Assembly (NCBI RefSeq): GCF_026210795.1
Contig: NC_089444.1
Location: 1,354,501 to 1,418,500, forward strand
Source: Rhizophagus irregularis
Lineage: Eukaryota; Glomeromycota; Glomeromycetes; Glomerales; Glomeraceae
Length of the DNA stretch: 64,000 nt
Direction of reading: 5' to 3'
Position 1 is the stretch's first letter. Every line of letters begins with the position of its first letter. The notes under the pieces are model-generated. The model saw nothing but the letters and a program-made list of their open reading frames with translations, had not been told where the DNA came from and did no database searches. Positions 2,112 to 60,921 of this stretch are shown piece after piece. Position numbers and translations under genes: made by a program.

Positions 2112-5100
2112 ATGGACAGTAAAGGTAAAGCATATAACATGAATAATAATATAAATTAGAATTATTCAAAATTTTTAAACAAACTTGCAACATAATAAAA
2201 CTAGTTTTGTGTGATACCAAAGAACCTGAAGGTAAATATAATATACAAAACGAAGTTGAAATATTAAGATTTTTATTTGTTAATAAAAAAACTTAATTGT
2301 AAATAATCAAATATAATTAAACCAAATTTGAAGAAGGTGATACCAAGGAATCTAAAGGTATATCAAACAAGATGAAGTATTATGTTTTATTTATAAGCAA
2401 TTCAAATACTACAAATATGATTTAGACTAACTATATTATATAAAATTATATTAAATATTTAGATTGTAAGTTAATATAATGAATTACTCATTATTTTTAT
2501 TATATTCTATATAACTAAATAATTTATTTAATGATTAATAATACTATAGTTGGTAAGTTATCAGTTATTTAAACCTTTAGTCCTTTACTTTATTTACTCT
2601 ACATAACATTCAAATAACTAAATTCTCTGTTTAAATAACTATTTAATAATCAACTATATTACAGATGGTAAGTTACAATATATATATTATATTTATTTGT
2701 TTAATAATTTATATGATTCAACTAATTATATTTTTAATTTAAATAACTAGATTGTAAGTAATATATATAGTTTTACAGTAAATACTTTTGTACTATCTTT
2801 ATATCTAACTAATTAATAATTAATAATAATTCAGGGTGTAAGTTATATGATGTCTGTATTTTATTATTTATATAATTTAAGCTAACTTATTTCATTATTT
2901 AAAAAATTATTAAATAATATAGGGCGTAAGTTATTTATTTAATTCTATTATTACTTATTGTTATAATATTTACATATAACTAATTTCTTTATTTAAAAAA
3001 TATTAATTAATATAGTTTGTAAGTTATTTATTTGATTCTATTATTACTTATTGTTATCTGTTATAATATTTACATTTAATTTAAACTAACTAATTTCTTT
3101 ATTTATTTAATAGATAGTAAGTTATAAGTTATTTATTTAATTCTATTATTACTTATTGTTATAATATTTACATATAATTTAAACTAACTAATTTCTTTAT
3201 TTATTTAATAGATCGTTAGTTACAAGTTATTTATTTAATTCTATTATTACTTATTGTTATAATATTTACATACAATTTAAACTCTTTATTTAAAAAATTA
3301 TTTTGTAATTTATTTAGTTGGTAAGTCATAATTTATTTATTTAATTCTATTATTACTTATTGTTATAATATTTACATATAATTTAAATTAACTAATTTCT
3401 TTATTTAAAAAATTATTAAATAATATAGAGGGTAAGTTATTTATTTAATTCTATTATTACTTATTGTTATAATATTTACATATAATTTAAACTAACTAAT
3501 TTCTTTATTTATTTAATAGATCGTAAGTTATAAGTTATTTATTTAATTCTATTGTTACTTATTATTGTTATAATATTTACATATAATTTAAACTAACTAA
3601 TTTCTTTATTTAAAAAATTATTAAATAATGTAGAGAGTAAGTTATTTATTTAATTCTATTATTACTTATTGTTATAATATTTACATGTAATTTAAACTAA
3701 CTAATTTCTTTATTAAAAAATTATTAAATAATTTAGGGTGTAAGTTATTTATTTAATTCTATTATTACTTATTGTTATAATATTTACATATAATTTAAAC
3801 TAACTAATTTCTTTATTTAAAAAATTATTTTGTAATTTATTTAGTTGGTAAGTCATAGTTTATTTATTTAATTCTATTATTACCTATTGTTATAATATTT
3901 ACATATAATTTAAACTAACTAATTTCTTTATTTAAAAAATTATTTTATAATTGATTTAGTTGGTAAGTCATAGTTTATTTATTTAATTCTATTATTACTT
4001 ATTGTTATAATATTTACATATAATTTAACTAACCAATTTCTTTATTTAAAAATTATTAAATAATATAGAGAGTAAGTTATTTATTTTTTAATTCTATTAT
4101 TACTTATTGTTATAATATTTACATGTAATTTAAACTAACTAATTTCTTTATTAAAAAAATTATTAAATAATATAGAGGGTTAGTTATTTATTTAATTCTA
4201 TTATTACTTATTGTTATAATATTTACATATAACTAATTTCCTTATTTAAAAAATCATTAAATAATATAGAGAGTAAGTTATTTATTTAATTCTATTATTA
4301 CTTATTGTTATAATATTTACATATAATTTAAATTAACTAATTTCTTTATTTAAAAAATTATTAAATTATATAGGGCGTAAGTTATTTATTTAATTCTATT
4401 ATTACTTATTGTTATAATATTTACTATAATTTAAACTAACTAATTTCTTTATTTAAAAATTATTAAATAATATAGAGAGTAAGTTATTTATTTAATTCTA
4501 TTATTACTTATCATTGTTATGATATTTATATATAATTTAAACTAACTAATTTCTTTATTTAAAAAATTATTAAATAATACAGGGCGTAAGTTATTTATTT
4601 AATTCTATTATTACTTATTGTTATAATATTTACATATAATTTAAATTAACTAATTTCTTTATTAAAAAATTATTAAATAATATAGAGAGTAAGTTATTTA
4701 TTTAATTCTATTATTACTTATTATAATATTTACATATAATTTAAACTAACTAATTTTCTTTTTTAAAAAATTATTAAATAATATAGAGTGTAAGTTATTT
4801 ATTTAATTCTATTATTACTTATTGTTATAATATTTACATATAACTAATTTCTTTATTTAAAAAATTATTAAATAATATAGGGGGTAAGTTATTTATTTAA
4901 TTCTATTATTACTTGTTGTTATAATATTTACATATAATTTAAACTAACTAATTTCTTTATTTAAAAAATTATTAAATAATGTAGGGTGTAAGTTATTTAT
5001 TTAATTCTATTATTACTTATTGTTATATAATATTTACATACTATTTAAACTCTTTATTAAAAAATATTAATTTATATAGTTTGTAAGTTATTTATTTAAT

Positions 5101-7411
5101 TCTATTATTACTTATTGTTATCTGTTATAATATTTACATATAATTTAAACTAACCAATTTCTTTATTTATTTAATAGATAGTAAGTTATAAGTTATTTAT
5201 TTAATTCTATTATTACTTATTGTTATAATATTTACCTATAATTTAAACTAACTAATTTCTTTATTTATTTAATAGATCGTAAGTTACAAGTTATTTATTT
5301 AATTCTATTATTACTTATTATTGTTATAATATTTACCTATAATTTAAACTAACTAATTTCTTTATTTAAAAAATTATTAAATAATGTAGGGAGTAAATTA
5401 TTTATTTAATTCTATTATTACTTATTGTTATAATATTTACATATAATTTAAACTAATTAACTAATTTATTTATTTATTTAATAGAGCGTAAGTTATAAGT
5501 TATTTATTTAATTCTATTATTACTTATTATTGTTATAATATTTACCTGTAATTTAAACTAACTAATTTCTTTATTTAAAAAATTATTAAATAATATAGAG
5601 GGTAAGTTATTTATTTAATTCTATTATTACTTATTGTTATAATATTTATGCATAATTTAAACTAACTAATTTCTTTATGTAAAAAACTATCTATGATATA
5701 GCTTGTAAGATATTTATATTTCTATTGTTATATATTTTATATAAGGAATATGTATATTATACTTATTTGTTAACTGAATTCTTTCATTTAAAAAATATCT
5801 GTTGCTTTAGTTGGTAAGTTGTAAATTATAGGTTATTATATATTTATCTAAAAACTAAGATTTATTACATCAAATTCTTTATTTAAATTTTAGAGTAAGT
5901 AATAATTTATTTTGGTGTAATTATAATACAAGCTATAATATAATTTTAACTATTTAAATTTATAGATTTGGAAAAAGTGAAAATGCAATTATAGATAATT
6001 TTATTTTTGAAAATGGATTAAAATGGATTCCTTATAACAAATTTAGAAATGTTGAATATTTTAATGAAGGAGGATTTGGTACTATATATAAAGCTACTTG
6101 GTTAAAGAATAATAGAGATAAAAAAGTAATTCTTAAATGTCATAAGGATTTAAATGAAAACTTAAATGAATTTTTAAAAGAAGTATGATAGTATATTATT
6201 TTTTATTTTAATTTAAGAATTATTTATATTAATAAGTTATTATTTTTTATAGTGGAAATATCATGCAAGTGTATTAAATTCAAATCATATTATATTTTTT
6301 TATGGATTTACAGAAGATCCAAATACTTCAAAATATATGGTAGTAATGGATTATGCAAATAAAGGTAATTTAAGAGAAAATTTAACAAGTATAGTTGAAA
6401 ATAATTGGAATCAAAAATTATATATGTTGTACGAAATTATTTCTGGACTTAATAAGATACATGAAGAAAATCTTATTCATTGTGATTTTCATGATGGTAA
6501 TATTTTAAATCATAATAATAAGGATAAGGATAAAATTTATATTAGTGATTTAGGATTATGTCAACATGTAAGATCGTTTTTGAAAGAGTATGATATTTAT
6601 GGTGTTATACCATTTATGGCTCCTGAAGTTTTAAGAGGCAAATCTTATACTCCAGCTAGTGATATATATAGTTTTTCTATGATTATGTGGGAGCTTACAT
6701 CTGGGATACCACCATTTAATAATAGAGCACATGATATTCAACTTAGTTTAGGTATTTGTAAAGGTGAACGTCCTGAAATTATTGAAAATACCCCACAATG
6801 TTATGTAGATTTAATGAAAAAATGTTGGAATGAAGATTCATCAAAAAGGCCATTTTCTAAAGAAGTATTAAATATTATTAAAAAATGGATTTTCCGTCCT
6901 GATGGTAATGAAGTCAGTGAAGAATTAGAAAGCAACATTATGGAATTTATAAATGCACCAATTGGGCGTAACAATATTGCTACTAAATCTCACTCTAAAG
7001 CATGTTATACAAGTCGCTTACTTGATTTTACTAGTAAAAAATTGAATGAAATTCTTGAAAGTAAAATTTTGAATGATTGTGTGATTAAAGATTTGAGGAC
7101 ATTGGGTATATACCATAATATATAAAAATTTAATCTTGCAAATTATTTATATGAATTAATTAATTTAATTATTAAAACAGATGAGAATACTAGTAAGTTG
7201 AATGAAATTCTTGAAAATGAAAATTCACAAGCCAGTGTAGAAGCAAATGAAATTCTAGTAAGTGAAGATTTGAATGATTATATAATTAAGAATTTAGGGT
7301 CATTAGGTATGTACTGTAATATATAAAAGAATTAATCTTGCAAATTATTTTATGTGAAATTAATTTTATTTAATATTTAATTATTTAGATATTAAAACAG
7401 ATGATAATTAA
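2112..7411 (+). CDS. TKL-like protein kinase encoded through a microexon array
   Basis: Proposed exons: 2112-2124, 2205-2231, 2334-2357 (or 2337-2357, a NAGNAG acceptor), 34 three-base exons between 2463 and 5813, one base at 5894, then 5966-6182, 6253-7105, 7181-7306 and 7401-7411. They sum to 1,374 nt, or 457 residues. Kinase motifs are visible: glycine loop EGGFGTIYKA (about residue 90), VILK lysine (113), HCDFH catalytic loop (Asp 206; the usual HRD arginine is Cys), DLG (227), a MAPE segment and SDIYSFSMIMWE. The kinase part from 5966 is certain; the 5' part rests on splice-site grammar and frame continuity. The upstream exons encode a duplicated DTKE(P/S) motif. The last exons may be optional: intron retention ends the frame at 7125. 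Likely a cytosolic signalling kinase; substrate unknown. Confidence 0.65.
2463..5900 (+). repeat. Tandem array of intron-like units with 3-nt exons
   Basis: Units of 84-115 bp each start with a donor and end with an AG acceptor. Most contain a TTAAACTAACTAATTTCTTT branch-site region and no AG between that branch site and the acceptor. Between each AG and the next donor lie exactly three bases. Their first bases are at 2463, 2550, 2665, 2751, 2835, 2923, 3016, 3114, 3212, 3318, 3429, 3530, 3634, 3737, 3845, 3960, 4069, 4176, 4270, 4374, 4476, 4583, 4686, 4787, 4881, 4985, 5080, 5178, 5276, 5390, 5485, 5599, 5702 and 5811. Thirty of the 34 donors are GTAAGT; the others are GTTAGT (3215, 4179), GTAAAT (5393) and GTAAGA (5705). 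A final one-base interval is at 5894. The intron bodies are near-identical while the triplets differ. Confidence 0.9.
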
Positions 7412-11086: not shown

Positions 11087-13786
11087 TTATTTATTTATTT
11101 ATTTTATTTTATGTAAAGTCGGAAGAACTATTCTAAGAGAGCATTTATCCTTAGGAATGTGCCCAACATTTAGTCCATCATCTATCCCGAGGGGCAGACC
11201 CTACCTAATTATTATATATAATAGACTGCTCTGACAACACGACCGATGAAGGAGCAGGTAAAAGGAAACAGGGAACTAGAGAACCAAAGAAGTGAGAACA
11301 TCTATCTAATGGCTACATTATTATGGTGAATTATCATCTAAATAAAATATCTTATGTATAAAAATTAAGTGTGGCAAAACTATACATTATAAAATAAACA
11401 AATGTTTGAAGATGAAGGAGAATTATAATTAATAGTATCATTAGCTTCTAAATGTGTAAAAAGAGAACCACTATGTAAAAAATCAAACTTCTATAAAGGG
11501 TGAGAAGTCCCATATTTTTCTTTCGCCTAAAAAGGCGCCAACTGTAAATACTGTCAGAGTTGGAATGGTTCACACTATTCTAAATTGTTTTTTGGTTACG
11601 CAAATTGGGTGTAAATAATAAAACAAAATAAGATGTAGAAATAAACTACTGCTAAGTAGAAAAAATTTTGACTCAAAAAAAAAAAAAAAAAAATTATAAA
11701 TGTTTAATATCAATGAATCTTCACTCCAGTTGAGTCGTCCATAACGGCAGGAGAGAGACGTCTACGTTTGAATCTATCTGTGTTATCAATTGATGGGTAA
11801 AGGTTAGTAGTATGCGAAGAAAATCTTCATTTTTTAGGTCTGAGTTCGAGCTCTTTAGCATCGTCGGAAGTGTCCACTGGCACTCCGAACATGTTAAGGT
11901 GTGATTGGTTGCCATAGCGTATGTGCTTGTTAGATCTAATATTATCATCTTCAAATATGTTGGTACAATAATTACTCATAGTCTTATAAACTTTTGATTT
12001 AGTAATTTCGTTGTCAGTTTCCAAGTATTGGGTTGTCAACTTCGTCATTTTATCGTGAACACGCTCACAAAATGTACTCAACCTATCCTTCAAAAATTGT
12101 CGTGGTTTAACCCGATGGACTGAAGTCCCTTGCATAATTGCATTTTCTTGATTCAATCTAAAATGAGCAATACGCTCATTCTCACGTTGTAACGCACGAC
12201 GTTGTGCTTTTGTAAGTGGTGGGGGCAAATTGTTGTGTAAATTATACATATAAGTAAACCACTCTCTAGAACCTGGAACTATATATACACCCTCCTCTGT
12301 GTAAAGCGGTTCCTTAGGAATTATATTTCTGTATTTGTGAGGAATAAACATATTAGGGGTTGGATTGTAGGGCGCTACTGTATACGTAATAAGGGGTAAT
12401 GATGGTGGAGTATCGTTAATCGTGGTAGTCATAAATCTTTTACCAGGGCGTCCAAAAAAGGGCGTCCAAAATTTATAATTTCCGTGATGGAGGCCTTGGT
12501 TGTAAAGAAGATGTTTGATGGGTTTAAGAACAAATTGTGTTTCTGAAAACAGAAATCGATATCTTTGTGCCGTAGCATATTTATGCTGTATAAGGTCCAT
12601 ATGATTATGTTCTTTTGTGTTGAAAATGCGTCGTTTAGCCCTATCAAAACGAGTCTCTTGAGCCTTGCTCACGCGAGGGTTGTGACTACGTCGGATACTT
12701 AAATTGCAAAGTTTTTTCCTATATATATGTTTATTATTAAGGTGTGTAATGGAGTGGCGATCACGAGCATGGATCGTTTCTTCATAAGAAATTCCCAATC
12801 TTCGAGAATAAATTCTTTTAGTTCTATGTGTATTCCAGTGAGTGTATAAAAGATTAGCATGAAAAATCTTTGGTTTTAAAGAAGGATTTGTTGAATCAAC
12901 ATTAAGTTCTTTTTTAACATTTTTAATATGTATAAACACATCATTTTTAAAGAATAAGGGTTGGTGAAGGACGCAAGCTCTTCTAAAATCTGACATTATG
13001 AATGGTGTCGGTACTTTACAAATGGTTTTTGGAGGAGTGAATCCAGGAAATCCAGGGGTAATGTAATCATGAGAACAAGGAATATATATTCCAAAGTGAA
13101 AACGATATCGTTTGTAAGAGAAATTAAAAAAGTTTTTGGTGGTTGTGTTACGTGAATCAATTTTACTAGCACGTGACATGATGATCGCCTTTCTTTGTAA
13201 TAATTTATCTCGGATAAAATTAAAAAATTTTTGTTGAATACGCCTGGGTAAAACTCTTTGTAAAGAAAAAAAATGTGTGAGCATAACACTAATCTGGTAT
13301 TTGTCATTAGGGAGTTTACTTGTGTTAGGATAACTAATTGGGGTTGTTTTCATGTGATAATCATTTGTGTGTATTTTAAGATGAATTTCATTGGTGTCTG
13401 TAGAATGATCGACTAACTCAAAAAAGAAACTTTTTGATCTACTGATGTCATAAATTTTGTTGTAACCAGCTCGATTAGGACGAGTCACGTGAAATTTGGA
13501 AAAAGAAATGTCAAGGGGATATTTTTTCTCAAGGGAAGGTAAAATGTTTAAAGACTTTGAAGATGACATAACTATAAAAATTTTGGTGTACTATAATGAA
13601 AAAACTACTTCCAAAAGCAACGGGATATATAAGGAGTACTTTCCGTCGAGGCCACCAAGTGGTCCTCACTCCTTTTTTACCAACGTAAAGGGTTAAAAAT
13701 TATTTTTTATTTTAAAAAAAATGTGTATACTGCGGATTTCTATGAAATCTGACGGAAAGGGGAAGAGTTTTTTTTTTTTTTTTTTT
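11087..13786 (-). mobile_element. LINE-like insertion with (TAAA)n tail
   Basis: The mariner-like MITE is split between TTAACCAGCCCCTATATAT (11,068-11,086) and TTAACCAGCTCCTATATAT (13,785-13,803), a 19-bp duplication with one mismatch. Read on the minus strand the insert starts with an A-run then CTCTTCCCC and ends in a (TAAA)n-type tail at about 11,087-11,115. A variable-length target duplication plus a simple-repeat 3' tail fits target-primed reverse transcription. It contains a single 580-codon ORF and no visible reverse transcriptase or endonuclease, so it would need enzymes in trans or be a truncated lineage. Confidence 0.65.
11827..13569 (-). CDS. 580-residue ORF of unknown function in a LINE-like element
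   Basis: This intact single-exon frame begins MSSSKSLNILPSLEKKYPLD and ends DDAKELELRPKK. It is strongly basic, with many Arg, Lys and His, and has few cysteines. I see no signal peptide, membrane segment, reverse transcriptase YxDD, integrase or helicase motif. Its codon composition is less AT-extreme than neighbouring genes. The start is preceded at about 55-60 bp by a TATATA run (minus strand, near 13,625-13,632). It fills most of the inserted element, so a role as a nucleic-acid-binding ORF1-type protein is possible, but that is inference only. An unrelated host gene captured by the element is the alternative. Confidence 0.7.
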   Translation of the reverse strand: MSSSKSLNILPSLEKKYPLDISFSKFHVTRPNRAGYNKIYDISRSKSFFFELVDHSTDTNEIHLKIHTNDYHMKTTPISYPNTSKLPNDKYQISVMLTHFFSLQRVLPRRIQQKFFNFIRDKLLQRKAIIMSRASKIDSRNTTTKNFFNFSYKRYRFHFGIYIPCSHDYITPGFPGFTPPKTICKVPTPFIMSDFRRACVLHQPLFFKNDVFIHIKNVKKELNVDSTNPSLKPKIFHANLLYTHWNTHRTKRIYSRRLGISYEETIHARDRHSITHLNNKHIYRKKLCNLSIRRSHNPRVSKAQETRFDRAKRRIFNTKEHNHMDLIQHKYATAQRYRFLFSETQFVLKPIKHLLYNQGLHHGNYKFWTPFFGRPGKRFMTTTINDTPPSLPLITYTVAPYNPTPNMFIPHKYRNIIPKEPLYTEEGVYIVPGSREWFTYMYNLHNNLPPPLTKAQRRALQRENERIAHFRLNQENAIMQGTSVHRVKPRQFLKDRLSTFCERVHDKMTKLTTQYLETDNEITKSKVYKTMSNYCTNIFEDDNIRSNKHIRYGNQSHLNMFGVPVDTSDDAKELELRPKK

Positions 13787-24270: not shown

Positions 24271-24284
24271 CAAACACACTATAA

Positions 24285-25245
24285 TCTCCACTTTGGACAA
24301 ATGAAATCAACTTTATTTATTAATTGAAAGTTGTTCAGGTGGGTTGATTCTACTTGAATATTAATTTTCATGAATATAGGTGTAGTGCTTAGAGAAGATT
24401 GCATTTTTCTTGATGATATTAACTCTCTTTTCTGTTTTTTTTTTAATTTAGAGCGTAATATCTCCACTTTAGACAAATGAAATCAACTTCATTTATTAAT
24501 TGAAAGTTGTTCAGGTGGGTTGATTCTACTTGAATATTAATTTTCACGAACATAGGTGTAGTGCTTAGAGAAGATTGCATTTTTCTTAATGATATTAACT
24601 CTCTTTTCTTTTTTTTTTAATTTAGAGCGTAATATCTCCACTTTGGACAAATGAAATCAACTTCATTTATTAATTAAAAATTGTTCAGGCGGGTTGATTC
24701 TACTTGAATATTAATTTTCATGAATATAGGTGTAGTGCTTAGAGAAGATTGCATTTTTCTTGATGATATTAACTCTCTTTCCTGTTTTTTTAATTTAGAG
24801 CATAATATCTCCACTTTGGACAAATGAAATCAACTTCATTTATTAATTGAAAGTTGTTCAGGTGGGTTGAAATCACTTGAATATTAATTTTCACGAACAT
24901 AGGTGTAGTGCTTAGAGAAGATTGCATTTTTCTTAATGATATTAACTCTCTTTTCTGTTTTTTTTAATTTAGAGCGTAATATCTCTACTTTGGACAAATG
25001 AAATCAACTTTATTTATTAATTGAAAGTTGTTCAGGTGGGTTGAAATCACTTGAATATTAATTTTCATAAATGTAGGTGTAGTGCTTAAAGAAAATTGCA
25101 TTTTTCTTAATGATATTAACTCTCTTTTCTGTTTTTTTTTTAATTTAGAGCGTAATATATCTACTTTGGACAAATGAAATCAACTTCATTTATTAATTAA
25201 AAGTTGTTCAGGCAGGTTGATTCTACTTGAATATTAATTTTCATA
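24285..25245. repeat. Tandem repeat, about 174-bp unit, 5.5 copies
   Basis: Units start with TCTCCACTTTGGACAAATG near 24,285, 24,461, 24,635, 24,808, 24,982 and 25,159, a period of 173-176 bp, and differ by few substitutions. Each unit ends in a strong pyrimidine tract and AATTTAG, followed on the plus strand by AGC and GTAATA (ATAATA in one unit). That repeats the acceptor, three bases, donor layout of the large array, but I see no flanking exons. The minus strand has short open frames (MSKVEILRSKLKKKQKRELI) that are not preserved across unit junctions, so I treat it as non-coding. Confidence 0.85.
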
Positions 25246-33759: not shown

Positions 33760-36700
33760 TTAAATTATACAATCCAAACACTCAGAATTATTTTGATATA
33801 AAATTTCAGTAAGCAAGCGGCTTGCATAATATGCTTGTGGATGAGTTTGTAAAACAGAAATATTAGCTTGTTTTTGTGTCAAAACTCTATTTGCATTAAT
33901 AAATTCATACATATCATTTTTTAATTGATTATCAATATTAGGAACGACATATCTTTGTTCATCTTGTTCATCTTCACCATTATATATATAATATTCATTA
34001 ATACTTCTAAGCCATTCAGATATAGTATTTTCAATAATTACTATATTTGGTCTTTTGGAAGGATCTGAACCCCAGCACTTTTTCATCAAATCTATATAAC
34101 ATTTTGGAGTATTTTTTATAATTTCAGGGCGATCTCCTTCACAAATACTTAAAATAAGTTCAACATCATGTGCTTTATTATTAAATGGAGGAATACCTGA
34201 TGTAAATTCCCACATTATCATTGAAAAGCTATAAATATCACTTGCTGGAATATAGGGTTCTTTTCTTAATATTTCAGGCGCCATGTAGGGTAAAACTCCA
34301 TAAACTTCATCAATTTTATCATCAGAATTTTGTATAGGTTTGCATAATCCTAAATCAATAATATATATTTCATTATAATCATCTGATATTAAGATATTAC
34401 CATCATGAAAATCACAATGAATAAGTTCTGATTCATGTATTACTTTAAGTCCTAAAATAATTTTTTTTAATAATTGCAATTTAGTTTGCCATTTAAATTT
34501 AACTATATTAGATAAACATTTTTTCAAACTTCCTTTTTTTGCATAACTCATTATTATCATATAATTTAAATTATTTGGATCTTGGGAAATTCCAAAGAAT
34601 TGAATAAATTTTGAAAAAGACTTTTTCTGACAATTATAATGATGTTTCCACTATATATAGTAAATATTTAAAATTATTAATTTATAAGATAAAATAAAAT
34701 ATACAATTAGTATCTAATAAGTAAAAATACTATACCTCATCTAAAAATTTATCACTTAAACTTGATGAATTATTAAGATTTTTAAGAATAACTTCATATT
34801 CAGTCCATCTATTCCATTGTTGTTCATCAAAGTTCCAACTATCAATAGGTCCATCTAACCAGATAGCTCTATAAATTTCGCTAAATCCTCCTTTATCATA
34901 ATAATTAATATTATTTAATTTATTATAAGGTATCCATTCTAAAACTTCATAATTACTTTTAGCATTTAGTTGTGCTTCTTGAATAAATTTATCAATAAAT
35001 TTATTTTTACTAGTCCATTTTGAAAAATCTTGCTGAAATTGTTTAATATTACATTGTTGGCACCATTTGTAATCAATATATAATTGATTGCATTCCTTAC
35101 ATAAGTTGTTAATTTTAAAATTATCTGGAGCCATTTTGTGCCAATAAAATGCTTTTTCCAAATTCTTCTCTATCCCTTCACCATTTTCATAACATAAGAC
35201 AAGACCATGCATTGACCTTTCATAGCTCTTCTCTGCCGCTTTCTGATACCATTGAAAGGCCATTCCCAAGTCCTTCTCTGTCCCTTCACCATTTTCATAA
35301 CATAAGGCAAGACTGTGCATTGACCTTTTATAGCCCTTCTCTGCTGCTTTATGATACCAGTGAAAGGCCATTCCCAAGTCCTTCTCTGTCCCTTCACCAC
35401 TGTAGTATTGTAGGGCAAGACCATGCATTGATCCTTCATAGCCCTTCTCTTCTGCTTTCTGATACCAGTGAAAGGCCATTCCCAAGTCCTTCTCTATCCC
35501 TTCACCATTGTAGTATCGTAAGGCAAGACTGTGCATTGACCCTTCATAGCCCTTCTCTGCTGCTTTCTGATACCAGTGAAAGGCCATTCCCAAGTCCTTC
35601 TCTGTCCCTTCACCATAGTAGTATTGTAAAGCAAGATTGTGCATTGACTTTTCATTACCCTTCTCTGCTGCTTTCTGATACCAGTGAAAGGCCATTTCCA
35701 AGTCCTTCTCTGTTCCATCACCATTTTCATAACATAAGGCAAGACTGTGCATTGACCTTTCATAGCCCTTTTCTACTGCTTTCTGAAACCAGTAAAAGGC
35801 CATTCCCAAGTCCTTTTCTGTCCCTTCACCATTGTAATATTGTAAGGCAAGACCATGCATTGACCCTTCATAGCTTTTCTCTGCTGCTTTCTGATACCAG
35901 TGAAAGGCCATTCCCAAGTCCTTCTCTGTCCCTTTACCATTTTCATAATACAAGGCAAGGCCATGCATTGATTCTTCATAGCCCTTCTCTGCTGTTTTCT
36001 GATACCAGTGAAAGGCCATTTCCAAGTCCTTCTCTGTCCCATCACCATTTTCATAACATAAGGCAAGACTGTGCATTGACCCTTCATAACCCTTCTCTGC
36101 TGCTTTATGAAACCAGTGAAAGGCCATTCCCAAGTCCTTCTCTGTCCCTTCACCACTGTAGTATTGTAAGGCAAGACCATGCATTGACCCTTCATAGCCC
36201 TTCTCTGCTGCTTTCTGATACCAGTAAAAGGCCATTCCCAAGTCCTTCTCTATCCCTTCACCATTGTAGTATCGTAAGGCAAGACTATGCATTGACCCTT
36301 CATAGCCCTTTTCTACTGCTTTCTGAAACCAGTGAAAGGCCATTCTCAAGTCCTTCTCTGTCCCTTCACCATTGTAGTATTGTAAGGCAAGATTGTGCAT
36401 TGACTCTTCATGGCCCTTCTCTGCTGCTTTCTGATACCAGTGAAAGGCCATTCCCAGGTCTTTTTCTGTCCCTTCACTATTGTCATAACATAAGGCAAGA
36501 CTGTGCATTGACTCTTCATAGCCCTTCTCTGCTGCTTTCTGAAACCAGTGAAAGGCTATTTCCAAGTCCTTTTCTGTTCCTTCACCATTGTAGTATTGTA
36601 AAGCAAGACCATGCATTGACCCTTCATAGCCCTTCTCTGCTGCTTTCTGATACCAGTGAAAGGCCATTTCCAAGTCCTTCTCTGTCCAATCACCATTTTC

Positions 36701-37240
36701 ATAATATAAGGCAAGACCATGCATTGATTCTTCATAGCCCTTCTCTGCTGCTTTCTGAAACCAGTGAAAGGCCATTTCCAAGTTTTTTTCTGTCCCTTCA
36801 CCATTGTTATAACATAAGGCAAGACCATGCATTGACCCTTCATAGCCCTTCTCTGCCACTTTCTGATACCAGTGAAAGGCCATTTCCAAGTCCTTCTCTG
36901 TCCCTTCACCATTGTAGTATTGTAAAGCAAGATTGTGCATTGACTTTTCATAACCCTTTTCTGCTGCTTTCTGATACCAGTGAAAGGCCATTTCCAAGTC
37001 CTTCTCTGTCCCATCACCATTTTCATAACATAAGGCAAGACTGTGCATTGACCTTTCATAGCCCTTTTCTACTGCTTTCTGAAACCAGTGAAAGGCCATT
37101 CCCAAGTCCTTTTCTGTCCCTTCACCATTATAGTATCGTAAGGCAAGATTGTGCATTGACCCTTCATCACCCTTCTCTGCTGATTTTTCTAACCAATTAA
37201 TGTTATTACTTGAATCTTTGATATTAGTGGAAGTTGACAT
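33760..37240 (-). CDS. Sel1-repeat TKL-like protein kinase
   Basis: Two exons, 37,240-34,736 and 34,650-33,760 (donor GTATAG, acceptor TATAG), give 1,131 residues; Met 37,249 is an alternative start. Residues about 25-710 are 19 Sel1-like repeats of 36 residues (consensus GSMHxLALxYxNGEGTEKDL and AFHWYQKAAEKGYE), a TPR-like solenoid for protein binding. A short zinc-ribbon-like CKEC...CQQC module (about 714-733) and the kinase domain follow: GGFSEIYRA (784), VILK (Lys 820), HCDFH (Asp 915, with Cys for the HRD arginine), IDLG (Asp 934), MAPE and SDIYSFSMIMWE. The repeats are nearly identical at DNA level, suggesting recent amplification. Probably a signalling kinase with a scaffold-binding arm; substrate unknown. 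Confidence 0.92.
34745..37165 (-). repeat. 108-bp tandem repeat encoding 19 Sel1 units
   Basis: The Sel1 array proper spans roughly 35,120-37,165 at a fixed 108-bp period without indels. Protein units 2-3 resemble 14-15, and 9-11 resemble 16-18, so growth probably occurred in blocks of several units. Because 108 is a multiple of three and the repeat lacks stops on the other strand, a 683-codon antisense frame exists (35,149-37,200), which I regard as a by-product. Confidence 0.85.
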
Positions 37241-37249
37241 TATTAACAA

Positions 37250-38131
37250 ATAATTTTATTTATAATTTAAAAAATTTAAATTCCTAAATGATGCATTCCA
37301 AAAAGGAAGGGCACTTTTTTTTTTAAATATTGTATGCTATGTTTCACTGCACTGTTGTACATTCACCGCATTTCACTGCATTGCAGTTCATTATAACAAA
37401 ATCATGTCCATTGCAAATCAATTTTTTACGAATAACGGTTGTTTACATAAAGATTTGGAAAAATTGGATGATGATTTATGTACAGTATAATCCGAATTGA
37501 CAATTGCATAATAAAAATTTCTAGCATGCATACTTAAACAAAGTAGGACTTTAATAAATATAACTTCAAATCTTTTGGTTTAGGTAATAATTTATACATA
37601 TGGAAATAATACTAATTTAAGTATAATTTAATTACCTATCAATGAATAAGCCGATTCTCAGCCAGAGTGACGGAACTGAAAAAGAAAGAAAAAATTTATT
37701 AATAACTTAATATTACTAATCCTCCGACGCCAAAGGAAACTGAAGCTATTTAACGTAATACCGCAGCAGTAATCGCAGCAATGAACTGATCCTAAAAAAG
37801 AAAAATCCCATTAATTTTATGGCTAATAGTGATTAATTGTACCATAGTAACCACATTTTGAGACAATCATATTTAAGAAAAAGGGGAGTATAGGATAATA
37901 TCATATACCCGGGTACACGTTAAGGATCCCATTTTTTTTTGCTTAATAACTCGGCTAACAAATAATTCGACCAATAAAATTACTTCACGTGATTTGATTT
38001 GTATCAATTTTAATTTTGACCAGTAATCTTTGAAAAAAGTTATTTCCATGTCTTCATAATAAAAATAAAATAAAAAATACAAAAAAGCTAAAAAAGGTAT
38101 CAGTTTTTTTTAAAAAAACATTATTTTTAAA
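37250..38131. other. Intergenic between kinase and ATPase genes
   Basis: No gene is visible. About 37,325-37,395 reiterates TTTCACTGCA/TTGCAGTTCA phrases. The rest is AT-rich; the short minus-strand frame at 37,873-38,082 is not convincing. Confidence 0.3.
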
Positions 38132-38397: not shown

Positions 38398-41300
38398 TTA
38401 CAACCATTCTTTAAAGAGTTTAATGTATACCCACTTAATAAAACTGGTGAGAAACCAATAGGTAACGAGCACTCCTAAAAGGTACGAATAATAAAGTCCG
38501 GGTAATGGAACCATGCCTAGATATTTATTTAATGGTGTAAAAGGAATTATAATTGCAGCGCTCATGACAGCAAGGGTGGACAAACAAACAGGTAAAGAAG
38601 CAGTTGATTGTAAAAAAGGGAATTTGGGAGTTCGAATCATATGGACAATTAATGTTTGCGTAATCAACCCTTCAACAAACCAACCCGTCTCTATATAATA
38701 AAATAGTAATTGGGGTTAAAAAAAAAATTATAATTAATATATTTGATGCTTCCAAAACAAAATACTGTGATTTACTTACGAAATAGGCGAACTTTATAAA
38801 CATCATGAGGATCTTGGCATTTATAGTAGTAGAACATGAAAGCAAATGTGGTCATGTCAAAGATACTATTCCAAGGTCCAGTAAAAATCATGAATTTAAC
38901 AATACTTCTTGCAGACCATCGTTTGGGATGAGTCAAAAATTCAGGATCCTGCAATAATCGAAAGTTTAATAATAAGTTCTGAATTTTACATATTTACTCC
39001 GAAAATAAGTATGGACCTACCATTCTATCCCATGGAATTGCAATTTGAGAAAGATCATACAACAGATTTTGCAATATAAGTTGAAGTGCTTCCATTGGTA
39101 GGAAAGGAAGCCAGGCAGAAGCAATTAAAACGCTAAAGACATTACCAAAATTCGAAGAAATTGCCATTTTAATATACTTGATTGTATTGCCATAAGTGAT
39201 TCTTCCACGGATTATACCATCAGCAAGTACCATAAGACTTTTTTCGAGTAAAATGATGTCCGCAGATTCCTTGGCAATATCTGTTCCCTCATCTACACTA
39301 ATACCACAATCACTTTCACGGATTGCTGGAGCGTCATTAATTCCATCACCCAAAAAGCCAACAATGTGGTTACGTCTTTTCAATGCTTTTACAATATTTG
39401 CCTTTTGAAGAGGAGTTAACTTTGCAAATATTGTACCACTTTCGGCAATTTCTTCTAGTTTAGCATCATCAATACCTTCAAGTTCAGTAGTAGTGATAAT
39501 AGATTTAACTGGAAGATTAATTTCTTCACATACTTTGCGGCAAACAGCAGGTGAGTCTCCAGTAAGTACTTTAACCTCCACATTATATTTAAATAGTTCT
39601 TGAAGAGCAGGTTTAGTGCTTGGTTTTGGTGGATCCAAGAATGCGCAAACACCAACTAAAGTCAATTCGCTCTCGTGAGCTACAGTAAATTCGGAACATT
39701 TTTTCATATCTTTAAATGCAACTGCTATAACTCGTAGACCATCATTATTAAGACTTTCATTCAAATTCTTCATGTTTTTTAGAATTTCAGTTGTAATAGG
39801 AATGATGTCACTTGTTGGAAAAATTTCATTCGATGAAACATTATCCTTACCAACATAAATATTAGTGCAACAAGTTAACATTTCATCGACTGCTCCCTTT
39901 GAGATCAAGAAACGGCAATCATCATCTTTGCTGGATTCTAAGATGACAGACATTCTTCTTCTGACAAAATCGAATGGAATTTCATCAACTTTGAAAAAAT
40001 TTTGAGAAATATAAGCTCCATCAACATTTTCACTATTAAAATATTCAATAACAGCCACGTCCAAGAGGTTTTTAAGTCCAGTTTGAAAGTAACTATTAAG
40101 ATATCCCAGATACAAAGGAAGTTTGGAAACGTTTCCCAAATGGTCAAAATGATTTATGAGAACGACTTTGTTACAAGTTAAGGTTCCTAAAAAAAAAATA
40201 AAAAAATAAATTAAAAATTTAATTTTTTTTTTAAAAAAAATAAATGTAAATAATGATCAATTAATACATACCCGTTTTATCCGTACATAAAATATCTATA
40301 CCACCGAGATTGATAATAGAATCAAGTTTCTTTACGATACATTTTTTCTTTGACAAGTTAATAGCACCACGTGCCAGATTTGCATTCACGATCATTGGCT
40401 ATATTAAATAAGACATTTATTATTACTTATAAAAATCTTTTAATAAAAAATAAAATATTTGATAAAATAATTTACCAGCATTTCAGGAGTGAGACCAACT
40501 GCAACAGCAGCAGCAAACAATACTGCATCCTTCCAACCTCCCTTTAAAAAACCTTGAATCAATAATACCGGAGGCATCATCGCTAACATGATGCAAACAA
40601 ACATGTAACTGACACGGCGAATACCTTTTTGAAAAGCATTAGGAGTTCTTTTAACAGAAAGTTGTTTGGCCATTCCTCCAAAGAAAGTATTAGGACCCGT
40701 TTTTAGAACAACAGCAGTTGCAGTACCACTAACAACGGAAGTACCCATGAAACATAGATTAGGTTGATCAAGCTCAGAATAATTTAGTTTTGCATTATTT
40801 GTATTAATTGGTAAATAATCAGGTATAATAGGAGGTTGCTGTTGTAAAATTGTAAATTTTTCAACTGGAATGGATTCACCAGTTAATGAAGCTTGAGAGA
40901 CAAAAAGATCCTTGGAAGAAATCAATTGGACATCACCCGGAATTAGATCACCAGCACTAAGTCTAACCCAATCACCTGGTACTATATCTTCTAATGGGAT
41001 ATCCATTTCAACCGTTTCACCTCGATCCATCATCTCTATATCTTCATAACTTGGATCACTATAGTAAAAGAAATTAAAATATTATCATAAAAAAGTTTTT
41101 TCTTTCAAATAATTTTATTTAATTTTTTCCTTAAAATAATTACCGATTGTCAGGTGGTGAATATAAACGGATTACAGTTGCATTGTTATTAACCATTTTT
41201 TTTAGTTCTTGAGTTGCAACTTCACTCTTATATTCTTGAACGAAACGAATTCCAACGGACAGAAAAACCATTATTAATAAGATTACCAACGAGGAGTAAT

Positions 41301-56944: not shown

Positions 56945-57870
56945 TTTCTTACTATCACTATTTCATTATTTTTTATTTTTTAGATCCTTTAGTCCTTCAA
57001 GTTCTGCAATTACGGTTCAGTTGTTTTCACTTTACGTTTTGTTTTTTACTTATTTTTTTATTTTTTTTATATCTTTCAGTTTTTTTGATTCTATAATTAA
57101 TAAAGGTATATTTTTTATTGTTTATTTATTTTTTTTATTTCATTTCTATCTTATATACTAACTTTGTTTTTTTTTTACTTCATGGTTTTATTTTTACTTG
57201 GTTTCCTATCATTACTATCCAACCTCCTATCATAATCATTTTTTTATTTTTTGTCTCTCATCATTTTTCACCTCCTATTACTTTTCATTATTCTATACTA
57301 TTCATCTCCCATTAATTTCTATTACATCTTTTCATTTTCCATTATCTCTTTCTCTCCTGTTTAATTCCCATCATTTCTTTTTGTCTCTCATCGCTCCTTT
57401 TCGTCTCCCATCACTCCTCTTCATCTTCCCATCACTTCTTTTCGTCTCCCATCATGCCTCTTTATCTTCTCATCACTCTTTTTTGTCTCCCATCACTCCT
57501 TTTCGTCTCCTATCACTCCTTTTCGTCTCCCATCATTCCTTTCATCCCCCATCACTCCTTTTCATCCCCAATACTCCTCTTCATCTTCTCATCACTCCTT
57601 TTCATCTCCCATCACGCCTCTTTATCTCCCATCACACCTCTTTATCTTCTCATCACTCCTTTTCATATCCCATCACTCCTCTTCGTCTCCCATCTGTCTC
57701 CTATCGCTCCTTTTCGTCTCCCATCACTTCTTTTCGTCTCCCATCATTCTTTTTCGTCCCCATCACTCCTCTTCATCTTTTCATCACTCCTTTTCGTCTC
57801 CCATCACCCCTCTTCATCTTCTCATCACTCCTTTTCGTCTCCCATCACTCCTCTTCATCTACCATCATGC
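56945..57870 (+). repeat. Pyrimidine-rich dispersed repeat, copy B
   Basis: This is the second copy of the repeat at 645-1440, without the 183-bp insertion. Its 3' two thirds (about 57,370-57,870) are a degenerate minisatellite of CATCACTCCTTTTCGTCTCC and CATCACTCCTCTTCATCTTC units. The 242- and 145-codon overlapping frames here encode only reiterated Ser-Pro-Leu-Phe-His peptides and are artefacts of the satellite. Confidence 0.75.
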
Positions 57871-59181
57871 CATATTTCTCCTTCTTGTTAAAGGAGAGAT
57901 CAACAATTTGTATATTTATAAATTGAAGTCATTTTTTTTTACAATAACTTTCACTTAAAAGATCTTTTAAAAGTATGTCAAACTCCCCCATGAAAATGAC
58001 CTCTTGTTATTAATAGATAAATATCAATTGTATATATTTTTTTAAACTTAAAAAAAATAAAAAAAATTTTTAATCATTTAATTGTTTGCATAAATATTTT
58101 TTAATCAATCATCTTTCAATCATTTTTTAATCATTTTTTTAATTCTTATAATTTATTTTAATAATTTTTATTTGAAATGACTAGTAGAGATGATGTTTTT
58201 TTTTAGATCTAGTTTATAAAAAAAAGAATTTTTTTTTTAATATTATTGTTTTATGTATTTTCGAATTCTATAACTTTACGCTGGATCTACCGTCTATCGC
58301 TATAAAAAAAAATCATCAAATAAATGGAAACGAAAAAAAAATTTTCAAAAATTTTCAAGTTTTTATGAGAATTTACATTTATTTATTCTATATTATTATA
58401 ATAATAATCAATAGAAAGATTTAATATAATTATTATATAAAAAATTTTTTAAGTTTTTAAACTTTTATTATGATACAAATAATTTTTATAGAGAGAGATA
58501 ACGTAAAATTTTCGCCATCCATAAAAAAAAAATAAAACTGAGCACATTAAATTATCCTATACCAATTGATTTAAATTTCTTTTTTTTTATTTTTGAAAAA
58601 GGTACAGTACATACTTTTAAAATCTTTAATATAAAATAGCTATATAAGAGATACTGTACATGTGAATCAAAATAATTTTATATAACTATTTTGAAATTAA
58701 AACAATTGAAATTTTTATAAGCATTACCTACTTTAATGACGAATTATATTATAACTGAATTTATTCATTAATATGAATTTCCTTCATATAATAATGGTAA
58801 AATATTTCCTTTTAGTTTTATGCAACTATAATACATTTTTTTAAAATTTTTTAACCTAAAATTTTAACATGATTCTAATTATAAGTATAATTGTACTAAA
58901 TAATATTTTTGTGTTGGATGATCGACAAAGCTTTTTTTTTTTGTGAAACAAGTATTTTGTTTGGGATTTATAAAAAAGGAAATTCTTAATAATCTGTGAT
59001 TTTTGTGATCATCAGCTGACTTATTGAACATTTTATTGTTTTGACCTAAATAAAAATGATTTTGTCAATCGCTGCTGTGTAACTGTAATACGTTTTAAAA
59101 GGCGTTTTTTTTTTCTAAAAAAAAAAAAATCTTTTTTTTCTGTCTAAACGTAAAAATTGAAGTCACATTTATTAATCCAAT
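57871..59181. other. AT-rich intergenic sequence
   Basis: Dominated by A- and T-runs, including TTTTTTTTCTAAAAAAAAAAAAA hairpins near 59,108-59,130. A phrase at about 58,705-58,805 (ACTTTAATGACGAATTATATTATAACTGAATT...) recurs near 61,585-61,685, flanking the kinase gene as a diverged direct repeat. No gene is seen. Confidence 0.35.
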
Positions 59182-60921
59182 ATGGAAGAATTTATACTTA
59201 CTGATGATATATTTGAGCAAATAAAAGATTTTGATCATGAGAACCTAACTAAAAAACAAATTTTGTTAATTGATAAGTTAATATTAAATAAAAAATTAAA
59301 AATACGTTATATAAAAAATGGTTTATGCATAGGATGTAAGCAGCCTAATACTGCTTATACGAGTAAATTTAGTAGTTGGTGTATGTCATGTAATGCTAAG
59401 ACTTTTCAGCAAAATTTTAAAAATTGGACTAGTGGAAATCATAAAATTGATAAGTTTATTCAAAAAGTACAACTTATAGCTAAAAATGATAGGGGAGTTT
59501 TAGAATGGATTGAATATGATAGATTTGAAAATGTTGAATACTTGACAAAAGGAGGATTTGGAACTATTTATAAAGCAATTTGGAAAGATGGATTTATAGA
59601 AAGTTGGGATTTTGAAAATAATAAATGGATAAGATTTAAATATTATTGTAGGCAATATGAGAATTTTCCAGTTATTTTAAAATGTTTAGATAATTCTCAA
59701 GATATTACATCCGATTTTATAAGAGAAGTAAGTTACTTATTTTGTATATAATTTCAAGATATTGTCCTATTATAAATGTTAAACTATCTATTAATTATTG
59801 TTATTATGGATTCTTTTTTAGATTGGAACACATGTTTTTTTTTCAAAAGAGGATTATGGTAAAATTAGTTTAACATCACGGTGTTTTGGCATTACTAAAG
59901 ATCCAGAATCTAAAAATTTTATGATGGTAATGGGATATGCAAAAGATGGTAGTTTAAGACAACATTTAAATAATAGTTTTAAAACAACAAAATGGTTTGA
60001 AAAGTTTGATATTTTAAAAAAAATTGCAAAAGGCCTTGAGGTTATTCATCAAAAAGGGTTAATTCATCGTGATTTTCATTGTGGTAATATATTAAAAGAT
60101 GAAGATTATACTTTCATTACTGATTTGGGATTATCTCGACCAGTGAATGTAAAATCATCCCAAAATGAATGTAAAGAATTATATGGAGTATTACCCTATG
60201 TAGCACCAGAAGTTCTAAGAGGAAAAGAATATACTCAAGAAAGCGATATTTATGGATTTGGAATTATTGTGTATGAAGTTTGTACAGGGCTCCCTCCTTA
60301 CCATGATATTGTTCATGATAAATTTTTAGCTATTAGCATTTGTCAAGGACTTAGGCCAAAATCAAATTATAAAATTCCTCAATTAATTCTAAACATAATT
60401 AAACAATGTTGGGATGCTGATCCTTTAAAACGACCTAAAGCAAAAAAATTATCAAGTTTATTACACAATTTATGGGAAGGATCATATTATGATGATGAAA
60501 CTGAAATCAAAAAGCAAATTGAAGAAGTAGATAAAATTAATGAGAAGTTAACTTCTTCTTCATTATTATATAATGGACCTACTCTTTCATATACTACAAA
60601 TCCTCAAGCAGTTTACACGAGTAGACTTTTAGATTTTAAAAATCTTCCAAAACCAAAAAATGCTATTGATAACAAGGATGATGATAATTCATTTGGAGAA
60701 TATTCAGGTAATTAATTTCCAAATTTAACTTTACAAAAGCATTCTTTAAATATTTTATTTGATGTATATACTTATTTTTATATATATTATAGAATCAATA
60801 GAAGCAATAGATTTTACCAAACTAGACCTAGGTACTTATATACAGTAACCTTTTATATGATTTATTTTATTAATAATATTATTTAATAATTTATTTTTCA
60901 CTTATAGATAAAAGTAACTGA
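59182..60921 (+). CDS. TKL-like protein kinase
   Basis: Exons 59,182-59,727, 59,822-60,707, 60,793-60,831 and 60,908-60,921 join in phase to 494 residues. The N-terminus has a zinc-ribbon-like motif (Cys 49, 52, 67 and 70: CIGC...CMSC) followed by FQQNFKNWTSGNHKIDKFIQ, a conserved linker in this family. The kinase follows: GGFGTIYKA (124), VILK (Lys 167), a canonical HRDFH (Asp 266), TDLG (Asp 283), APEVLRGKEYT and ESDIYGFGIIVYE. The small last exons give an ending ESIEAIDFTKLDLDKSN; without splicing the frame would stop at 60,714. All catalytic residues are present, so activity is likely. Probable cytosolic serine/threonine or dual-specificity signalling kinase; partners unknown. Confidence 0.92.

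Follow-up and report, generated by a model that had tools for sequence, protein, structure and literature searches.

How can a protein segment be encoded when each of its codons is bounded on both sides by splice signals? The question is raised by a locus in a 64,000-nucleotide stretch of the Rhizophagus irregularis genome (NC_089444.1, positions 1,354,501 to 1,418,500 of the forward strand; hereafter the window, whose own numbering is used throughout), in which an earlier note on the DNA had described 34 three-nucleotide exons between tandemly amplified introns. The array of triplets is confirmed here, and a protein kinase domain follows it. Our reading, to which we give a probability of roughly 0.86, is that the locus is a kinase gene whose pre-kinase segment would be put together from 34 constitutively spliced single-codon exons and one single-nucleotide exon. 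The gene family behind the array is large, making the finding wider than the note had claimed.

Thirty-four triplets in one reading frame

A scan for AG-NNN-GT from 2401 to 6000 returned 42 raw matches. Seven are 4-nt shifts within GTAAGT and one (5896) is part of the one-nucleotide exon described below, leaving 34 three-nucleotide exons from 2463-2465 through 5811-5813 (Table 1). Their donors are GTAAGT in 30 of 34 cases, the exceptions belonging to the exons at 3212, 4176, 5390 and 5702, and the exon-to-exon spacing of 84-115 gives introns of 81-112 nt; exon number, donor count and intron lengths all agree with the note. The array DNA is a tandem repeat of ~104 bp with 84% matches. The claimed branch site and AG-free tract were seen in introns pooled from 28 loci (the window gene and 27 relatives introduced below) rather than from the window array alone, a branch-like motif lying 12-70 nt from the intron 3' end in 822 of 917 introns and being followed by an AG-free tract up to the acceptor in 818 of those 822. 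Exon 3 of the window gene ends in GAATCTAAAG; with an alternative start at 2337 it would be 21 nt long and likewise in frame. The predicted splice product of the array is ATTTTGATGATTGGTGGCTTTATAATCTTGAGGATCAGAGGTTTGTTGAGAAGGAGAGGCAGAGGCAGAAGTGGGGGTTTTATAATCGGAAGCAGGCTTTTG, then A, then ATTTGGAAAAAGTG, and reading the triplets in phase 1 after exon 3 gives the stop-free peptide DFDDWWLYNLEDQRFVEKERQRQKWGFYNRKQAF, which bears out the 34 residues that had been announced in the frame of the upstream exons.

A search of the whole window, on either strand, for runs of at least 3 units spaced 60-240 nt apart gave one other chain, at 24424-25123, consisting of five identical AGA units that belong to a 174-bp satellite. 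This satellite (24284-25243, 5.5 copies, 93% matches) is apparently unrelated to the array.

Stop codons vanish where neighbouring triplets join

We reasoned that if adjacent triplets are joined in phase 1, a triplet ending in T is forbidden before one starting with AA, AG or GA. The loci for this test came from the genome (146,748,485 bases in 32 contigs), in which BLASTN gave at least 72 matches (30 candidates scored). The first set comprised the window gene and 27 loci around BLASTN matches (28 loci), 15 further loci were held out, and the pooled set has 43. Arrays are present in all 27 related and all 15 held-out loci, with 7 to 73 canonical triplets each in the stretches fetched, many held-out stretches starting inside the array so that unit numbers there are lower bounds. 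The first set totals 944 canonical triplets, or 985 units when non-canonical donors are counted, with 15 to 74 units per locus bar the rearranged L025 (14 modelled). For 25 of the 28 loci, the model of the N-terminus finishes in phase 1; exon 1 was not found in L021 and L024, and L025 has no modelled N-terminus. Counting excluded AG-NNN-GT matches that follow another within 20 nt, the initial match in L009 and any junction with a spacing above 125 nt, the 20-nt and 125-nt rules being applied to the held-out stop counts as in the first set, and L043-L056 were left out of the held-out stop, pooled lag, and codon and exon-length counts.

No stop codon was found at the 838 adjacent phase-1 junctions of the 28 loci, against a mean of 23.1 and a minimum of 11 in 2,000 within-locus shuffles, while the other phases gave 117 stops (phase 2, 97.8 expected) and 2 stops (phase 0). 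Because tandem copying makes junctions non-independent, each pair type was also counted once, and there were again 0 stops against 13.0 expected (minimum 7 in 1,000 shuffles). The held-out loci behaved likewise, with 0 stops at 380 junctions against 10.9 in 2,000 shuffles (minimum 3) and 62 stops in phase 2. When the 43 loci were pooled, stops numbered 0 of 1,218 at lag 1 (34.4 ± 4.6 shuffled) and 24 of 1,057 at lag 2 (29.7 ± 4.5), were at chance at lags 3 to 8, and numbered 42 when neighbouring triplets were read in reversed order. That stops are zero only at adjacent junctions suggests that the mRNA seen by selection would hold every one-codon exon, in order, and supports the coding role that the note had given to the triplets.

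The same lag comparison bears on combinatorial splicing, in which exons would be skipped in many in-frame combinations and one gene would yield many kinases. Every three-nucleotide exon is frame-neutral and some units carry non-canonical donors (GC, GTATGT, GTAAGC), both of which would suit such a scheme, but skip junctions carry stops near the shuffled rate, indicating that skipped isoforms would be unprotected by selection. We regard this scheme as highly improbable, although a few skipped isoforms could nonetheless be made.

Could the array instead be a noncoding satellite within one large intron, with exon 3 spliced to the one-nucleotide exon or the kinase exon and AG-NNN-GT a by-product of the repeat? 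The tandem repetition of the DNA fits this view, and the frame stays intact if the whole array is skipped to the one-nucleotide exon. However, besides the loss of stops at lag 1 and their near-chance number at lags of 2 or more, all three stop codons are at zero at adjacent junctions (TAG 0 vs 24.8, TGA 0 vs 5.1 and TAA 0 vs 4.6 expected), whereas codons that share their final two bases with a stop codon keep counts above zero: AAG 56 vs 39.0, CAG 25 vs 24.5, GAG 38 vs 29.7, CGA 6 vs 4.7 and CAA 4 vs 3.3. The remaining codons with at least 5 expected range from 0.53 (ACT 10 vs 19.0, GTT 36 vs 67.4) to 1.54 of expectation, which is what local unit copying would give. Neither splicing nor mutation offers, to our knowledge, any reason why precisely the three stop codons should be at zero. 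Exon length is equally strict: among 1,355 GTAAGT donors with TAG or CAG no more than 12 nt upstream, the exon is 3 nt in 1,336, 6 nt in six, 9 nt in one, zero in two, and 2 or 4 nt in ten (23 more GTAAGT donors have no TAG or CAG within 12 nt). Combined with the phase-specific nonsynonymous excess described below, these results make a noncoding satellite extremely improbable.

A predicted one-nucleotide exon leads into the kinase

Given that the array leaves in phase 1 and the kinase exon at 5966 is entered in phase 2, one more exon is required between them, and the A at 5894, which completes a GAA codon and takes phase 1 to phase 2, would provide it. The series of 34 phase-1 triplets in the earlier note stands, but this exon, needed by the kinase frame, had been overlooked. 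It was found in 42 of the 43 loci read, L042 being rearranged there, and its base is T in L007 and C in L028. A 29-nt pattern around it (2 mismatches allowed) gave 69 matches in the genome and 0 in the reversed control; 67 of the 69 lie no more than 700 bp upstream of a kinase exon on the same strand (150 listed kinase exons), at a distance of 51-76 nt in 65 of those 67. In the loci read, the exon was located with a pattern that itself fixed TTTAG and GTAAG, so that full conservation at these letters is no evidence. At oriented position ~5026-5180 of L007, the penultimate exon now reads TAG/GTAAGT, a zero-length exon resembling a recursive-splice site.

The two large exons downstream carry a glycine loop (GGFGTIY), a catalytic lysine (VILK), HCDFHDGN and DLG, as expected of the kinase fold, and match the Pfam profile PF07714 at 6.1e-42 (PF07714/PF00069 scores 6.1e-42 and 9.2e-38). 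Among 2,447 distinct solved-structure sequences matched, EGFR came first, and CTR1 and MAP3Ks were among the best; partly from these CTR1/MAP3K matches, we take the kinase to be of TKL type. The first kinase exon has a mean pN of 0.096 and pS of 0.109 (378 pairs; nonsynonymous and synonymous differences, respectively), and extra small 3' exons beyond 7125 are possible.

Two related kinases in the window lack an array and, unlike the array gene, have the corresponding region in one ordinary exon. The first (59176-60715, +) has WCMSCNAKTFQQNFKNWTSGN within 59176-59751, carries a CxxC segment and then WTSGN, and is useful as an array-less comparison. In the second (33760-37255, −), the region lies behind Sel1 repeats in an ordinary exon at 34730-37255; ~19 such repeats, encoded by near-identical 108-bp tandem DNA repeats, precede the kinase of this locus (34730-37255 and 33760-34650, −). 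The post-array GKSEN..ID.FI aligns with WTSGN..ID.FI of the first relative and WTSKN..ID.FI of the second. Since this alignment comes right after the array, the array would occupy the place of the short Cys-containing segment or the repeat domain that its relatives have beside the kinase. With its Sel1 repeats, the second relative is a further case of an N-terminal module made of repeats.

Triplets diversify between near-identical introns

In an exon-anchored alignment, no other position of the displayed stretch varies as much as exon bases 1 and 3 (1.87 and 1.97 bits). One cluster of 118 units from 20 loci with identical flanks (30 nt upstream and 40 nt downstream) contains 20 different triplets, and flank-identical pairs differ in their triplet in 36% of 777 cases within loci and 86% of 6,744 between loci. 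The per-site rate of change on minimum spanning trees is higher in triplets than in their flanks by a factor of 8.4 (496 edges), or 6.9 for the held-out loci (95 edges). Of 83 single triplet changes read in phase 1, 6 were synonymous where 19.4 would be expected (simulated P 0.00025), while the other frames gave 34 vs 23.2 (phase 0) and 21 vs 20.0 (phase 2). The held-out loci showed a similar trend in a small set, with 4 synonymous vs 9.4 expected of 40 directed edges; the neighbours that set the codon context were gap-filtered in this test and unfiltered in the main 83-edge test. Taken together, triplets far more variable than identical flanks, with a nonsynonymous excess in phase 1 only, uphold the note's suggestion that triplets and introns are constrained differently.

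Without any diversifying selection, the triplets could also vary through a mutational hot spot or through exchange of short tracts, and the exon does exceed its flanks at every position, even the middle one (change of 0.256, 0.113 and 0.239 at positions 1, 2 and 3 with zero flank changes). A hot spot plus stop filtering does not, however, predict changes that track phase-1 codon structure, as seen at the 83 edges of the main test, and we hold this explanation to be unlikely.

Close paralogues are near-identical over the 620 bp after the array, while their predicted array peptides are unrelated. Over these 620 bp, L001 matches the window gene at 97.9% identity, the longest array peptide common to both being FDDWW; for L012 and L013 the figures are 97.6% and DW. 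Between half-introns the resemblance is greater across a triplet (rho 0.37) than inside one intron (0.10), and for triplets the linkage to the two flanks is 0.36 and 0.27. Linkage that is higher across the exon than within the intron points to a copied unit made of the exon and its splice-site surroundings, with breakpoints inside introns. This bears on a further explanation, namely that introner-like mobile introns were inserted between the codons of a formerly continuous exon, as near-identical introns at many chromosomal sites beside different codons might suggest. What duplicates and moves in an introner-like element is the intron, whereas the linkage here is centred on the exon; moreover, insertion is not expected to give strict phase 1 at each codon, and close paralogues differ in array length and residues. 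An origin by such insertion is scarcely credible.

Array kinases across the genome

Genome matches to the kinase exon number at least 151 (150 candidates scored). One unit subclass, which makes up 438 of the 985 units of the first set and 138 of 458 in the held-out loci, has 1,458 exact genome matches and 0 in the reversed control; extrapolation gives ~3,300 to 4,800 single-codon exons genome-wide. Array ends are similar in many loci (start CTT TTG ATG ATT GGT, end CTT TTG) and interiors divergent. A second, divergent kinase clade is likewise preceded by arrays (L049+L055, L050+L056). Among isolated unit copies, those in L051-L054 resemble lone fragments and those in L048-L050 a divergent second subfamily of arrays; of the latter loci, L049 and L050 lead into kinases of the other clade. 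L044-L047, considered as array-less relatives, proved to have arrays of 17, 9, 14 and 14 canonical triplets. L043 has only scattered triplets, before a kinase without a glycine loop, and may be a decayed array degenerating together with its kinase.

Exon 1 encodes MGQCIGK, which we take to be a dual-acylation-like motif, in L002, L004, L018 and L020, and MDQRIE or MDSK in other paralogues; inspection by eye of the predicted N-termini (MDSK, MGQCIGK, MDQRIE and similar) found no obvious signal peptide. The predicted array peptides, of 14-74 residues, are basic in L026 (RRNKKRRRRRRRRNPF), acidic aromatic in L016, aliphatic in L008 and charged in L001.

Table 1. Predicted exons of the array kinase gene (window positions)
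Feature	Position	Strand	Remarks
Exon 1	2112..2124	+	ATGGACAGTAAAG; ends in phase 1; paralogues have exon 1 at the equivalent place with equal end phase (MDSK, MGQCIGK, MDQRIE types)
Exon 2	2205..2231	+	27 nt, phase 1 to phase 1; recurs in several long-N-terminus paralogues
Exon 3	2334..2357	+	24 nt, phase 1 to phase 1; read by eye, absent from the automatic model of the window gene
Array	2463..5813	+	34 three-nucleotide exons, all phase 1, and 33 introns of 81-112 nt; from AG-NNN-GT scan and ~104-bp tandem repeat
Array exon starts 1-12	2463, 2550, 2665, 2751, 2835, 2923, 3016, 3114, 3212, 3318, 3429, 3520	+	
Array exon starts 13-24	3634, 3737, 3845, 3960, 4069, 4176, 4270, 4374, 4476, 4583, 4686, 4787	+	
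Array exon starts 25-34	4881, 4985, 5080, 5178, 5276, 5390, 5485, 5599, 5702, 5811	+	
One-nucleotide exon	5894..5894	+	A, in TTTTAG/A/GTAAGT; acceptor AG 5892-5893, donor GT 5895-5896
First kinase exon	5966..6182	+	Entered in phase 2; FGKSENAIIDNFIFENGLKWIPYNKF...
Second kinase exon	6253..7125	+	HCDFHDGN catalytic loop and DLG motif, to stop codon

Elsewhere in the window, a pyrimidine-rich 20-bp minisatellite (TCCCATCACTCC...) is common to 57354-57867 and 1278-1425, an open frame of 587 codons lies at 11827-13590 (−), and open frames at 38994-41081 (−) resemble exons of what is presumably a P-type cation ATPase.

Discussion

Several observations weigh against the reading of the arrays as constitutively spliced single-codon exons. 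The ten exons of 2 or 4 nt have intact signals, and their use would disrupt the frame. Several of them sit in runs of G. Nanopore reads with Illumina polishing (Q36) underlie the published R. irregularis DAOM197198 assembly (PMC10234402), and errors of assembly may account for those in G runs; the rest may be copies in decay or exons that are skipped. In the 28 loci there are five gaps, two each in L001 and L005 and one in L018, that would give a stop if the non-canonical unit there were skipped. A three-nucleotide unit with another donor removes the stop in the L018 gap and one L001 gap; the L005 gaps hold a three-nucleotide other-donor unit and a 4-nt unit, and the remaining L001 gap a 2-nt exon. 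Of the 982 positions in the automatic models, 3 are still stops, in L001 and L005 at gaps with unresolved units. Wider gaps, or inserted DNA of a few hundred bases and up to 1.3 kb (L025), interrupt several arrays, and triplets starting with AG create a tandem acceptor (AGAG) that could allow mis-splicing. The invariance of AG and GT at the units was imposed by the search pattern and is no evidence. Not every flank-identical cluster is diverse (12 of 12 units ATG in one, 9 of 9 TTG in another), and codon degeneracy need not be the reason why the middle base changes less. Finally, a genome search found no processed retrocopy with the last exons, the one-nucleotide exon and the kinase exon joined: its three matches all have TTTAG before ATTTGG, like an ordinary acceptor, and a follow-up pattern, with 92 matches vs 39 in the reversed control, is too short for specificity.

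If the arrays are spliced as constitutive single-codon exons, each ~100-nt intron would be recognised singly and one codon joined at a time, presumably in sequence, since a three-nucleotide exon is too small for two spliceosomes. The repeat unit of the DNA would be the exon with its two adjoining half-introns, so that exchange within introns would duplicate or lose units in tandem, adding or removing one residue with the frame kept, while selection would purge stop-forming neighbours as residues diversify; the linkage and stop-codon results above support these steps. The expected outcome is a hypervariable segment, usually of ~15-70 residues, on otherwise very similar kinases. The placement of the array and its diversification, with the precedent of hypervariable fungal NLR repeats (PMC4986451, available part), suggest that the segment may perhaps serve an intracellular kinase as a rapidly changing part for binding or recognition, a role to which we give somewhat less than even chances. 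We would extend this tentatively, and with similar reserve, to a genome-wide, frame-safe diversity generator of ~3,300-4,800 single-codon exons in dozens to perhaps more than 100 kinase genes, whose cassette-like residues between recombinogenic introns might serve partner, host or non-self discrimination.

If the arrays are spliced as read here, a gene family writes tens of consecutive residues exon by exon, probably thousands of times in one genome, which would change the view of spliceosome limits and would add a new route to a hypervariable protein segment, through repeats with a conserved intron and a variable codon. One-codon exons are likely missed by standard gene finders and spliced aligners, and these kinases are therefore probably wrongly annotated; they are candidate recognition genes in a plant symbiont.

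Lone one- and three-nucleotide exons are known curiosities. Single-nucleotide exons have been reported in Arabidopsis APC11 (PMC4674806), plant VPS55 (PMC8831610) and Fusarium CYP621A, which was described as the first case in a fungus (PMC12940212), statements here and below referring to the available parts of the papers cited. The array genes resemble them in that the one-nucleotide exon is needed for the reading frame; those are single, RNA-supported cases, whereas here the motif is read from DNA alone and stands beside 67 kinase exons and three-nucleotide arrays. Among the matches listed from the open PMC literature (preprints and subscription papers not covered), none concerned Rhizophagus microexon arrays or runs of one-codon exons; the available parts of PMC8786786 and PMC13149111 mention neither, and those of the APC11, VPS55, CYP621A, micro-exon gene and bicycle reports contain no runs of one-codon exons.

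The array genes fall outside the schistosome-type micro-exon genes (MEGs), with exons of 3 nt and a kinase in two large exons. MEGs have most of their coding sequence in multi-residue symmetric microexons, and their products evolve fast. In Schistosoma, they have 10-20 exons per gene, of 6-81 bp in the text of the report (3-81 in its abstract) and mostly 15 bp, with introns of 0.1-5 kb, and encode secreted proteins (PMC10526429); the many consecutive tiny exons, mostly multiples of three, are shared with the array genes. By contrast, the latter have one codon per exon, up to ~70 running, ~100-nt introns and a kinase domain after them. The exons of aphid bicycle genes code for several residues each. 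Bicycle and megacycle genes have many microexons nearly all of one phase (more than 100 in megacycle), the characterised bicycle genes averaging ~17 exons and encoding putative secreted effectors (PMC9168663). Single-phase microexons, rapid divergence and conserved gene structure recur in the array genes, which in addition have near-identical tandem introns, not mentioned in the available part of that report.

Fungal NLR repeats offer a further comparison, as they combine high internal conservation with few positively selected variable positions, length polymorphism and concerted evolution within and between genes (PMC4986451). The array genes share with them homogenised units and positively selected variable positions, yet do not belong to the repeats of high internal conservation (a repeated protein motif with at least 85% identity across 100 residues), their peptides being of 14-74 residues with no repeated motif by eye and their repeat intronic. 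Where NLR repeats conserve the protein, the array genes conserve the intron and vary the lone codon.

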